Positions 2,451 through 5,793 of a stretch of DNA of 6,143 nucleotides are shown here, one piece after another. The first letter of the stretch is position 1, and every line of letters begins with the position of its first letter. Both the position numbers and the translations under genes were made by a program. Source of the stretch: an uncultured Thermomonas sp. (lineage in GTDB: Bacteria > Pseudomonadota > Gammaproteobacteria > Xanthomonadales > Xanthomonadaceae); the NCBI GenBank assembly GCA_946480065.1, contig CAMLJA010000124.1, positions 1 to 6,143 on the forward strand, given 5' to 3'. The notes under the pieces were generated by a model. It worked only from the letters and a program-made list of their open reading frames with translations. It searched no databases and was not told where the DNA came from.

Positions 2451-2978
2451 TCAGCGCAAGTCACCGAGCAGCGCGGCGAACGCCTCGGCGCTGGCCTGCA
2501 CGTGGTCGGACAGGCGGTGCGAATCGTCCACCAGCAGCAGCCGGGCGCTGCGCGCGGCGGCCCAGTCCACCACCTGCGCGGCGGGAATCAGCTCGTCGTG
2601 CCAGCCGTGGACGACCGACGTCGGCACCGCGGCCGCGGGCATCGGCGGCGCGCCCTGCATCACCACCGGCGGCGCCATCAGGAACAGGCCGGCCACCGGC
2701 ACCTGCAGCGACACGTGGCCGCTGATGTAGGCACCCAGGCTGGAGCCGGCCAGCACCAGCGGACCGCGCGCGGCGGCCGCCTGCGCCAGCGCCAGCAGGC
2801 GCGCGATGCGCGCCGGCACGTCGCCCAGCGGGGTGACCCCGCGGCGGGCGTCGAGGTCGGTGTAGTCGGGGCGTTCGTGGGTCCAGCCCAGGCGCCCGGC
2901 CACCTCGGCCAGCGCGGTCACCTTGCCGGCGTCGGGGCCGCTTTCGAAGCCGTGCGAGAGGATGCAGTGGCCGTTCAT
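2451..2978 (-). CDS. Small alpha/beta hydrolase (YqiA/YcfP-like size class)
   Basis: This is a 175-residue compact alpha/beta-hydrolase. Residues 6-12 (ILSHGFES) form the HG oxyanion region, and GSSLGA at 78-83 is the nucleophile elbow GxSxG with Ser80 as nucleophile. Asp128 (HGWHDELIP) and His154 (DDSHRL) complete a plausible catalytic triad in the right order and spacing. There is no signal peptide or membrane segment, so it is probably a cytosolic esterase or thioesterase; the substrate cannot be told from sequence. The ATG at 2978 overlaps the MOSC gene stop (ATGA), so the two are almost certainly translated together from one mRNA. A GGTGG run just upstream is a weak ribosome site. The open frame continues upstream of this ATG through antisense DNA, but only the part from MNGHCILSHGF onward looks like protein, and a start there exactly matches the overlap. 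Confidence 0.88.
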   Translation of the reverse strand: MNGHCILSHGFESGPDAGKVTALAEVAGRLGWTHERPDYTDLDARRGVTPLGDVPARIARLLALAQAAAARGPLVLAGSSLGAYISGHVSLQVPVAGLFLMAPPVVMQGAPPMPAAAVPTSVVHGWHDELIPAAQVVDWAAARSARLLLVDDSHRLSDHVQASAEAFAALLGDLR

Positions 2979-3469
2979 GCCGCCACCAAAGCGTCGCCGA
3001 CGCGCAGCGTGCCGCCCTCGAGGATCCGCGCGCACAGCCCGCCCATGCCGCGCATCGCGTTGTAGCCGCCGGCACCGAGCGCGGCCTCCATGCGCGAGCA
3101 CGGGTCGCATTCGCCGGTGCCCTCCAGCAGCACGTCGCCGATGCGGAAGCGGCGGCCCATCAGCGCGAGCAGCGGGATCCCCGACACCAGCAGGTTGCGG
3201 CGCAGCGTGGGCGCCGCGACCGACGCGTGGCCGGACAGCGCGGCGATGGCCGGCAGGTGCTCGGCCTGCAGCAGGGTCACCCCGCGCTTGCCGCTCGCAC
3301 TGCGGTAGCGGTCCCCGGCCAGCCCGGCGCCGGCGCGCGCCTCGGCCTCGTCGACCGCCCGCATGGCCGCGCCGCGGGCGGGGCGCAGTCCCATCCATTC
3401 CACCCGGCCGGCGCGCGGGAAGGTGCCGAACAGGCGGCCGAGTTCGGAATCGGGAGGGGGCTGCTGCAT
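2975..3469 (-). CDS. MOSC-domain protein (molybdenum cofactor sulfurase C-terminal type)
   Basis: The 164-residue protein is a stand-alone MOSC domain. Supporting motifs are GLAGDRY at 49-55, the charged RRNLLVSG block at 90-97, RFRIGDVLLEGTGECDPCSRME at about 107-128 with the conserved Cys pair (Cys121 and Cys124), and a C-terminal GGTLRVGDALV strand. MOSC proteins handle sulfur or reducible nitrogen on molybdenum-cofactor enzymes; stand-alone members such as YiiM detoxify N-hydroxylated base analogues, with the conserved Cys as metal or sulfur ligand. Which activity applies here is not decidable. The gene is first in a leftward pair with the hydrolase (4-nt overlap). Its ATG lies 22 nt from the divergent amidase ATG, has no Shine-Dalgarno, and has a TAGCAT hexamer 6 nt upstream, suggesting a leaderless mRNA. 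Confidence 0.88.
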   Translation of the reverse strand: MQQPPPDSELGRLFGTFPRAGRVEWMGLRPARGAAMRAVDEAEARAGAGLAGDRYRSASGKRGVTLLQAEHLPAIAALSGHASVAAPTLRRNLLVSGIPLLALMGRRFRIGDVLLEGTGECDPCSRMEAALGAGGYNAMRGMGGLCARILEGGTLRVGDALVAA

Positions 3470-3491
3470 CCGCGAATGCTAGCATCGGGCC
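3470..3491. promoter_or_regulatory. Predicted symmetrical bidirectional promoter for MOSC and amidase genes
   Basis: These 22 nt are all that separates two divergent ATG codons. At 3476-3485 lies the perfect palindrome ATGCTAGCAT. It contains TAGCAT on the plus strand (3480-3485) and TAGCAT on the minus strand (3481-3476). Each hexamer matches TAnnnT, and each ends exactly 6 nt before its gene's ATG, so transcription would start at or near the A of each start codon. Neither gene has a Shine-Dalgarno sequence. No good -35 box is seen for either direction, and any would lie inside the opposite gene. The two polymerase sites overlap completely, so they would be mutually exclusive. The palindrome might instead, or also, be a repressor site. 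Confidence 0.6.
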
Positions 3492-4073
3492 ATGCCCGCA
3501 CCGCCGATCAGACGCGATCCGCTGCCCTATGCCGAGGCGCTTGCGGCGCGGGACCCGGCCGACGTGGACACGGTGGTAATCCATTGCACCGAACTGCCCG
3601 ACTTGGCCACCGCGCGCGCCTGGGGCGAACGCGTGCTGTACCCCGCGAGCGGGACCGGCAACAGCGGCCACTACTACATCGACCGCGACGGCACGATCCA
3701 CGAATACGTGCCGGTCGCGCGCACCGCCCACCACACCCGCGGCTGGAACCCGCGCAGCATCGGGATCGAACTGGTCAACACCGGCCGCTTCCCCGACTGG
3801 CTGGATTCGCGCCGGCAGGCGATGGACGAGCCCTACACCGAGGCCCAGGTGGCGTCCCTGGTGGCGCTGCTGCTGGACCTGCACGCGCGGCTGCCGGGGC
3901 TGGCGCAGGTCGCCGGGCACGAGGACCTGGACCGCGACGAGGTGGCGGCCAGCGACGATCCCGCGCGGCGCGTCCGCCGCAAGCGCGACCCGGGCCCGCT
4001 GTTCCCCTGGGAGGCGGTGCTGGCGGCGGTGCCGCTGCGGCGGATCGCCGCGCCGGGGCCCGCGGCGCCTTAG
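3492..4073 (+). CDS. AmpD-like N-acetylmuramoyl-L-alanine amidase (Amidase_2)
   Basis: This 193-residue zinc amidase cleaves the bond between N-acetylmuramic acid and L-alanine in peptidoglycan fragments. Compared with AmpD, the zinc ligands are His31 (VVIHCTE), His143 (AGHEDL) and Asp166 (KRDPGPLFPW), with Glu93 (SIGIEL) and Lys164 as the probable catalytic pair. The HYYIDRDGTIHEYVP strand at 60-74 and AHHTRGWN at 79-86 are also family features. All key residues are present. No signal peptide, lipobox or membrane segment is seen, so a cytosolic role in recycling anhydro-muropeptides (and hence in AmpR-type beta-lactamase control) is more likely than cell-wall hydrolysis. It differs from classic AmpD around residues 95-118, so a paralogous AmpD homologue is possible and no symbol is given. 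It diverges from the MOSC gene, and its stop codon forms part of the predicted tesB promoter. Confidence 0.9.
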   Translation: MPAPPIRRDPLPYAEALAARDPADVDTVVIHCTELPDLATARAWGERVLYPASGTGNSGHYYIDRDGTIHEYVPVARTAHHTRGWNPRSIGIELVNTGRFPDWLDSRRQAMDEPYTEAQVASLVALLLDLHARLPGLAQVAGHEDLDRDEVAASDDPARRVRRKRDPGPLFPWEAVLAAVPLRRIAAPGPAAP

Positions 4074-4958: not shown

Positions 4959-5764
4959 GGCAGGTGTTCGCCAGCGCGCGGCTGGAAAACGTGGAGGCGG
5001 TGGCCGGGCTGCTGCGCGCGGAAGGCATCGAGGTCAAGATCAGCGACGGCCGCTCCTACCGCGGCAACCGCCGCGGCACCTTCAGCTATCGCGACGGCGG
5101 CGGCCCGCAGCCCGCGGTCTGGGTGGTGCGCGCCGAGGACCAGCCGCGCGCGCGCCAGCTGCTGCGCGACGCCGGCCTGCTGGAGAGCACCCGTGCCGGC
5201 GGCAGCAGCTTCCTGCCGCTGCCGGCGCCGGAGGCGTCGCGCACCGAGGCCACCGCGCGCAATCCGCTGCGGCTCAAGCTCGGGCTGCTGGCGCTGATCG
5301 CGCTGGTCGGCGCGATGATCGTGTTCGCCAGCCGCCAGCCCGGGCCGAACGCGCCCAAGCCCTCGGTGGCCAGCCAACCGGCACGTCCTGTCGCCCCCAT
5401 GGTGGTGCCGCTCGCGGGGGAGGCGCTGGAGGAATACCGCGCGCCGGTGCCCACCGCGCTGGCGCGGCTGCTGGTCGAACGCGCGCTGGCCGAACGCGCG
5501 CCCGCTCAGGCCTGCGTGGCGATCGACGGCGCCGACCCCGCCACCGGCTTCCTGCCGTCGCTGGCGGCCGGCAAGAGCGCCGTGTTCGCCGCGTCCGCCT
5601 GCCCCGGCCCGGACGCCTACGCCATCGCGGTGCAGGATTACCGGACCGACGGCAGCGGGCGCGGCCGGGTGTCGCTGCTGCTGGACGGGGCGCCGCCGCG
5701 GCTGCTCGACGTGGAGCGGGACGGTACCCGCTGGCGGGTGCTGGGCGAGGCGGCGTCCCCCTGA
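4955..5764 (+). CDS. DUF2007-like single-pass membrane protein ('pathogenicity-like' type), function unknown
   Basis: The protein has 269 residues and three parts. Residues 1-76 (MRQVFASARLENVEAV... WVVRAEDQPRARQLLRDAGLL) resemble the DUF2007 fold, a small alpha/beta domain called a putative signal-transducing domain, with an added basic loop (RSYRGNRRGTFSYR, 33-46). Residues 108-126 (LKLGLLALIALVGAMIVFA) form one membrane helix, followed by a Pro/Ala-rich linker (128-150). Residues 155-269 form a C-terminal domain with two cysteines (187 and 216) that could pair if periplasmic; I do not recognise this domain. Positive charges before the helix (Arg102, Arg106, Lys108) favour an N-in, C-out topology. 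Xanthomonas proteins of this plan are labelled pathogenicity-like, a name from annotation rather than a shown function. The ATG overlaps the tesB stop (ATGA), so coupling to tesB is likely. The palindromic terminator begins at the stop codon. Confidence 0.82.
   Translation: MRQVFASARLENVEAVAGLLRAEGIEVKISDGRSYRGNRRGTFSYRDGGGPQPAVWVVRAEDQPRARQLLRDAGLLESTRAGGSSFLPLPAPEASRTEATARNPLRLKLGLLALIALVGAMIVFASRQPGPNAPKPSVASQPARPVAPMVVPLAGEALEEYRAPVPTALARLLVERALAERAPAQACVAIDGADPATGFLPSLAAGKSAVFAASACPGPDAYAIAVQDYRTDGSGRGRVSLLLDGAPPRLLDVERDGTRWRVLGEAASP
5471..5500 (+). repeat. 15-nt tandem duplication inside the DUF2007-like gene
   Basis: Bases 5471-5485 and 5486-5500 are adjacent copies differing at one position (CTGGT versus CTGGC at the fifth base). 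The repeat is in frame and gives LVERA followed by LAERA at residues 173-182. It looks like a recent replication-slippage duplication in a probably helical segment. Confidence 0.7.
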
Positions 5765-5793
5765 AGGAACGCCCGGCATGCCGGGCGTTCCTT
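5764..5793. terminator. Perfect 30-nt palindrome, probable bidirectional terminator
   Basis: Arm AAGGAACGCCCGGC (5764-5777), centre AT, and its exact complement GCCGGGCGTTCCTT (5780-5793) form a stem of up to 13 pairs with a 4-nt loop. The first base is the A of the TGA stop of the upstream gene. Convergent genes flank it (stops at 5764 and 5808), and an A-rich edge on one side mirrors a T-containing edge on the other, so it can act for both strands. The T tract is short (TTCCTT on the plus strand), so it is not a textbook intrinsic terminator, but stem strength and location support the call. Confidence 0.8.

Follow-up and report, generated by a model that had tools for sequence, protein, structure and literature searches.

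The ten-letter word ATGCTAGCAT, which separates two divergently oriented genes of an uncultured Thermomonas sp., is very probably a bidirectional promoter, in which two extended -10 elements on opposite strands share their central TA, no -35 box takes part and two leaderless mRNAs would be made. This reading is based on the window, i.e. the whole stretch of 6,143 nucleotides that was analysed, and on related loci in other genomes. In the mechanism that we propose, one promoter of the sigma-70 type would serve both directions, with the -12/-11 pair of each strand being that of the other, and RNA polymerase would bind in both orientations independently of a -35 box. Initiation would occur 7 nt past the hexamer's final T, at the A of each of the two ATGs, and both genes would give leaderless mRNAs with predicted starts 23 bp apart on opposite strands. 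The use of both ATGs as transcription starts, the leaderless translation and a coupling of, or competition between, the two directions are predicted from the sequence, and the mutual influence of the two directions is the weakest part of the reading. The features concerned are the following.

2451-2978, minus strand: alpha/beta hydrolase, 175 aa, relative of XCC1541 (2qjw), E 1.2e-74
2975-3469, minus strand: MOSC-domain protein, 164 aa, PF03473, E 2.4e-14
3469, minus strand: predicted transcription start at the A of the MOSC ATG, 23 bp from the opposite start, placed by spacing
3476-3484, minus strand: putative extended -10, TGC-TAGCAT, of the MOSC/hydrolase operon, from sequence and conservation
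3476-3485, no strand assigned: putative symmetric double extended -10 element (ATGnTAnCAT), ATGCTAGCAT, from sequence and conservation
3477-3485, plus strand: putative extended -10, TGC-TAGCAT, of the amidase gene, from sequence and conservation
3492, plus strand: predicted transcription start at the A of the amidase ATG, 7 nt past the hexamer's last T, placed by spacing
3492-4073, plus strand: N-acetylmuramoyl-L-alanine amidase of the Amidase_2 family, AmpD-type, 193 aa, PF01510, E 6.1e-27
3' of the amidase gene, plus strand: TesB-type thioesterase gene

Genes around the element

The hydrolase ATG and the MOSC stop codon overlap as ATGA at 2975-2978 of the window, and the hydrolase reaches 22.5 bits against Pfam Abhydrolase_11, which is below the cut-off of 27. 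The plus-strand gene had been called a muropeptide amidase in the earlier note. The assignment to the Amidase_2 family stands, but the score against the NCBIfam model for AmpD (NF008758) is 43.3 bits with a cut-off at 143, and the label is likely rather than proven. Within the genome collection, the window is matched best by a Lysobacterales MAG, the amidase of which is 82% identical. Away from the element, a perfect 30-bp palindrome at 5764-5793, between convergent DUF2007-type and EF-hand genes, looks like the stem of a two-way terminator, and the stretch GTAGGAGCGCACCGCAGGGGCGCGAT at 2398-2423, between the hydrolase gene and an rlmL-type gene, is presumably REP-like.

Geometry of the element

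Along the plus strand, the CAT at 3467-3469 (the start codon of the minus-strand gene) is followed by a spacer (3470-3475), by ATGCTAGCAT (3476-3485), by a second spacer (3486-3491) and by the ATG at 3492-3494, and the 22 bases between the start codons read CCGCGA-ATGCTAGCAT-CGGGCC. The word is an exact palindrome 6 nt from the ATG on each strand, and it places TAGCAT at 3480-3485 on the plus strand and at 3481-3476 on the minus strand. By our own scoring, the Shine-Dalgarno match is 0 at both starts of the window. The divergent ATGs, the TAGCAT on both strands, the 6-nt spacings and the lack of Shine-Dalgarno sequences, all of which the earlier note had described, are thus borne out. Two aspects go beyond that description. 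The hexamer is directly preceded by TGC on both strands, as is typical of an extended -10 (TGn), and TAG of TAGCAT is an in-frame stop codon for each gene, since the 6-nt spacer is a multiple of three. Neither ORF of the window can therefore begin farther upstream.

An extended -10 reads TGnTAnnnT, and the usual distance from the last T of the hexamer to the transcription start is 7 nt. Two such elements on opposite strands that share the central TA spell ATGnTAnCAT, which ATGCTAGCAT fits, and their overlap accounts for eight of its ten letters. The shared TA at 3480-3481 represents -12/-11 on both strands, i.e. the two -10 elements overlap reciprocally, as in bidirectional promoters of the shared -10 kind. 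On both sides, the hexamer's first T stands 12 nt 5' of the ATG, in agreement with the TANNNT found about 12 bp upstream in leaderless genes. A consensus promoter scan gave 0 sites, because it demands a -35, and Rfam gave no structured-RNA match in the window at the gathering threshold.

Conservation in related loci and genomes

Conservation was assessed in 81 distinct loci, namely the best 80 of 565 confirmed amidase relatives and the window, which were picked irrespective of the palindrome. A TAnnnT 5-8 nt 5' of an in-frame amidase start is present in 58 of these 81 loci, at a distance of 6 nt in 33, 7 nt in 18, 8 nt in 6 and 5 nt in one. ATGnTAnCAT is found in 49 of the 58 and the exact ATGCTAGCAT in 41; the forward TG extension has its T in 54 and its G in 56 of the 58. 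A partner start lies 5-8 nt away in 31 of the 58 loci (19 MOSC, 2 hydrolase and 10 mini-ORF), the reverse -10 is retained without a start at this distance in 16, and it is missing in 9. In the other two of the 58, L036 and L068, a TTG positioned 8 nt from the reverse arm begins an ORF (119 and 120 codons, respectively) that is not in frame with the hydrolase; these two were classed as 'other'. The earlier note had held that an unconserved palindrome in relatives that keep the divergent pair would refute its interpretation; this is not what is seen in the amidase-selected set, with ATGnTAnCAT in 49 loci and a partner start in 31.

The same 58 loci bear on an alternative explanation, in which only the amidase arm acts as a promoter, conservation of the forward element produces the reverse arm incidentally, and transcription of the MOSC/hydrolase operon begins at another site. 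The letters of the forward TAGCAT that lie outside the selection (C and A in 58/58, G in 57/58) are indeed better kept than the first base of the word, which is the last T of the reverse -10 and belongs to the reverse promoter only (A in 49/58), and the 16 loci without a start near the retained reverse arm also favor this view. The reverse-only base is, however, far above the two bases just outside the word on that side, which reach 33/58 and 32/58 for any letter. We consider such a one-sided promoter quite improbable, also with regard to the start positions and the arm losses described below.

The remaining 23 of the 81 loci are without TAnnnT 5-8 nt before the amidase start. In 15 of them, nAnACT precedes the amidase ATG by 6-7 nt, in 14 of these 15 with TGC or TGA just 5' of it, and the background of nAnACT is 12 in 948 genes of a relative. 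Amidase starts with TGC-nAnACT, such as those of L018, L019, L031, L035, L037, L046 and L049, have an extended -10 without the first T of the hexamer. As 12 of the 15 nAnACT loci are labelled Rhodanobacteraceae, the symmetric form may have been preceded in evolution by a leaderless amidase with an extended -10. A leaderless amidase is not universal, since L026, L030 and L045, which belong to these 23, retain the palindrome with the nearest amidase start being 30-36 nt off. In one of the 81 loci (L014), the site is occupied by a run of N.

Genome searches covered ATG starts at the stated spacings, and their counts are lower bounds: CAT-N6-ATGnTAnCAT-N6-ATG matched in 23 of 149 family genomes, its N6/N7 variant in 18 of 149, and across the phylum only two of 249 genomes matched (G035 and G076), both of which are family members already found at the same locus. 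A control with the center flipped to AT (N6/N6) had no match in the 149 family genomes. All 41 family matches of the two spacings are the amidase/MOSC-hydrolase locus, to which the element is restricted in the genomes searched. In one MAG (G003), the amidase/MOSC locus is present twice, on separate contigs and in slightly different form (L082 and L083), perhaps from mixed strains.

It could also be thought that wrong start codons were annotated beside a random palindrome, as the element is short and is known here from sequence alone. We give almost no credence to such a chance or annotation artefact. ATGCTAGCAT is a single copy in the window and absent from all 200 dinucleotide shuffles of it, the 41 matches at one locus contrast with 0 of 149 in the control, conservation in 58 of the 81 loci contradicts it as well, and the in-frame TAG bars upstream starts at the 6-nt spacing. 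The view of the earlier note that TAnnnT at both starts is unlikely to be due to chance is thereby confirmed.

The two free n positions of ATGnTAnCAT are less free than the model of a double extended -10 predicts: they are C and G in 41 of 41 family matches, i.e. the same ten letters occur each time. This constancy and the perfect dyad symmetry would suit an operator at which a dimeric regulator governs both genes. An operator should recur at other promoters, but in 1.2 Mb of one relative ATGCTAGCAT is present a single time, at the same locus, so that no regulon is apparent there, and we have rejected an operator as the main reading. Moreover, the variants ATGGTAGCAT and ATGTTAGCAT, with 4 loci each, break the symmetry at a base that an extended -10 leaves free, and an operator leaves the fixed distance to the start codons unexplained. 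We regard an operator in place of a promoter as very improbable; that a regulator binds on top of the bidirectional promoter is possible.

Shine-Dalgarno sequences, -35 boxes and genome background

The background was taken from a 1.2 Mb Stenotrophomonas sample, in which our own simple caller found 953 genes, 947 of which were used. TAnnnT peaks there at 6 nt before starts (19 of 947 genes, with 4 at 5 nt and 6 at 7 nt); at 20-50 nt the mean is 5.5 per position, with a second, broader rise from about 25 nt. A Shine-Dalgarno score of at least 4 is reached by 2 of the 19 genes with TAnnnT at 6 nt versus 469 of 947 overall. Judged from these figures, a leaderless class with the same 6-nt spacing exists in this relative, and together with the conserved element it lends support to the shared promoter and leaderless genes that the earlier note had postulated. 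TAGCAT at 6 nt occurs once in the 1.2 Mb sample, at the amidase. Among the 88 divergent pairs of this sample that are less than 400 nt apart, none shows TAnnnT at 6 nt in both directions, with the locus itself not being among these pairs because the caller missed the hydrolase and the mini-ORF there.

In the amidase-selected set (the best 80 of 565 and the window), a Shine-Dalgarno score of at least 3 is found at none of the 21 MOSC or hydrolase starts at 5-8 nt and at 6 of the 58 amidase starts, whereas the 25 loci without a near start reach at least 3 in 21 cases and at least 4 in 11, about equal to the Stenotrophomonas background (at least 3 in 762 and at least 4 in 469 of 947 genes), a contrast that is partly built in, because a 6-nt spacer leaves scant room. 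No -35 boxes above background were detected in 68 loci, the best forward match being 3/6 and the best reverse match 4/6 (in one locus).

Loss of the reverse arm

The nine loci without a reverse arm are informative with respect to its role. In L055 the nearest partner is 1.1 kb away, and in each of the other eight a single alternative TAnnnT precedes the partner on that strand, a count without a chance control. This replacement stands 6-8 nt before an ATG in L006, L012, L020 and L053, and it is a TAAACT 27-29 nt before the partner start in L033, L052, L059 and L063. That the partner retains a -10 of its own after the loss argues for a promoter role of the reverse arm, and in all eight loci near a partner it counts against a promoter formed by the amidase arm alone. 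The forward hexamer is still TAGCAT in eight of the nine loci, and the idea that these letters are dictated by symmetry alone was rejected on this basis.

Changing genes behind the minus-side start codon

Adding 37 loci from the pattern search, the pattern of which demands an ATG at this place, to the 81 amidase-selected loci gave 118 distinct loci. The amidase-side -10 is present in 95 of the 118, and the minus-side ATG opens a MOSC gene in 41, a hydrolase gene in 9 and a mini-ORF in 18. Of these 68 ATGs, 64 lie at 6 nt and 4 at 7 nt, with 37 of the 118 loci having been chosen for an ATG there. A minus-side start within 5-8 nt is found in 70 loci; that it is placed 6 nt away in 64 of them and 7 nt away in 4 is, subject to the same choice of 37 of the 118, a further point against the one-sided promoter.

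The MOSC gene at the fixed ATG overlaps the hydrolase gene as NTGA in 34 of 41 loci. The mini-ORFs of the 18 loci comprise 10, 12, 15, 17, 20, 25, 27 or 39 codons, and in 18 of 18 the stop codon overlaps an in-frame hydrolase start codon as NTGA. This start is the sole candidate in the examined stretch in 4 of the 18, with further candidates in the rest; in L084, for example, the hydrolase start is either the GTG in GTGA or an ATG two bases on. Two extra mini-ORFs are found in L045 (39 codons, GTGA) and in L020 (8 codons, behind a separate TAGCAT). Loci with predicted leaderless mini-ORFs, from Stenotrophomonas and others, are L010, L016, L021, L042, L050, L057, L084, L108, L109, L112, L020 and L045. 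The mini-ORF peptides are highly divergent, and frame and NTGA overlap are constant; mini-ORFs may be shrunken MOSC genes.

A tentative model, which we ourselves hold to be rather doubtful, is that the 28-bp unit CAT-N6-ATGCTAGCAT-N6-ATG fixes the starts of transcription and translation in both directions while genes come and go behind it. After loss of the MOSC gene, the hydrolase would take over the 5'-terminal ATG, or a throw-away ORF would be retained solely to deliver the ribosome to the hydrolase via the NTGA overlap. The hydrolase starts in the mini-ORF loci, however, often have a Shine-Dalgarno-like match of their own (a lax score gave at least 4 in 12 of the 18 loci, compared with 469 of 947 genes in the Stenotrophomonas sample, and 7 of the 18 have a GGAG-type word), which counts against the delivery step, as the hydrolase start need not depend on the mini-ORF.

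An amidase tree was calculated from 98 of the 118 rows, with 20 being omitted as too short or because of gaps or stops, and a partner label was available for 79 rows, 3 of them assigned by hand (L026, L030 and L045). Parsimony gives 11 partner changes among leaderless rows, of which well-supported branches force only one per partner class. Given the relatedness of the loci and a tree with too little support for counting events, many independent partner changes are not claimed.

Comparison with known systems

Bidirectional promoters with a shared -10 have reportedly been described by Warman et al. in 2021. According to passages of PMC12825309 (Warman et al. 2026) and PMC10268837, a bidirectional promoter is defined by divergent starts 7-25 bp apart, and passages of the former give 18 bp as the commonest distance, with 10 and 23 bp also being common. 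The element described here resembles the promoters of these passages in having divergent predicted starts around one symmetric -10, at 23 bp and thus within 7-25 bp. It differs from them in that both predicted starts are start codons, each arm has a TG extension, and conservation extends over a family at a single locus; the main text of PMC12825309 and that of PMC10268837 contain no instance of the word 'leaderless'. Mutual exclusion of the two directions may be irrelevant at the basal level, because five bidirectional promoters tested in E. coli had, according to passages of PMC12825309, a basal activity too low for polymerase competition.

Leaderless genes carry TANNNT about 12 bp upstream of the start, as stated in passages of PMC3160421, and the two window genes are alike in that the first T is exactly 12 nt before each ATG and no Shine-Dalgarno sequence is present. 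Unlike in these passages, where genes are treated singly, two leaderless genes would face each other here on one -10. Kasugamycin reportedly does not inhibit leaderless translation (PMC5230787). Leaderless mRNAs of Bradyrhizobium have the extended -10 motif TGnTA upstream, which is the same motif as in the window and which is not described as two-sided in passages of PMC4842269. The mini-ORFs of the relatives resemble the 5'-terminal upstream ORFs of E. coli, in which, according to passages of PMC4965119, an AUG at the extreme 5' end opens a short ORF that is able to affect the next gene. There, the downstream gene has a leader and Shine-Dalgarno sequence of its own, whereas the mini-ORFs described here overlap the downstream start as NTGA and stand in place of the whole MOSC gene of relatives.

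Each ingredient is therefore known, i.e. bidirectional promoters with starts 23 bp apart, leaderless genes with TANNNT, the extended -10 at leaderless mRNAs and short 5'-terminal ORFs. No two-sided leaderless promoter was found in the titles and abstract openings of the literature searched, which is no proof of its being unpublished. What appears to be novel is the union of these ingredients in one conserved unit, in which both sides would be leaderless and the start codon stays while the gene changes. The choice of transcription start in both directions would then be tied directly to translation initiation within 28 bp. The mini-ORFs of 8 to 39 codons represent natural variants for asking whether a 5'-terminal AUG is by itself sufficient to supply ribosomes to a downstream gene after the upstream cistron has been lost.
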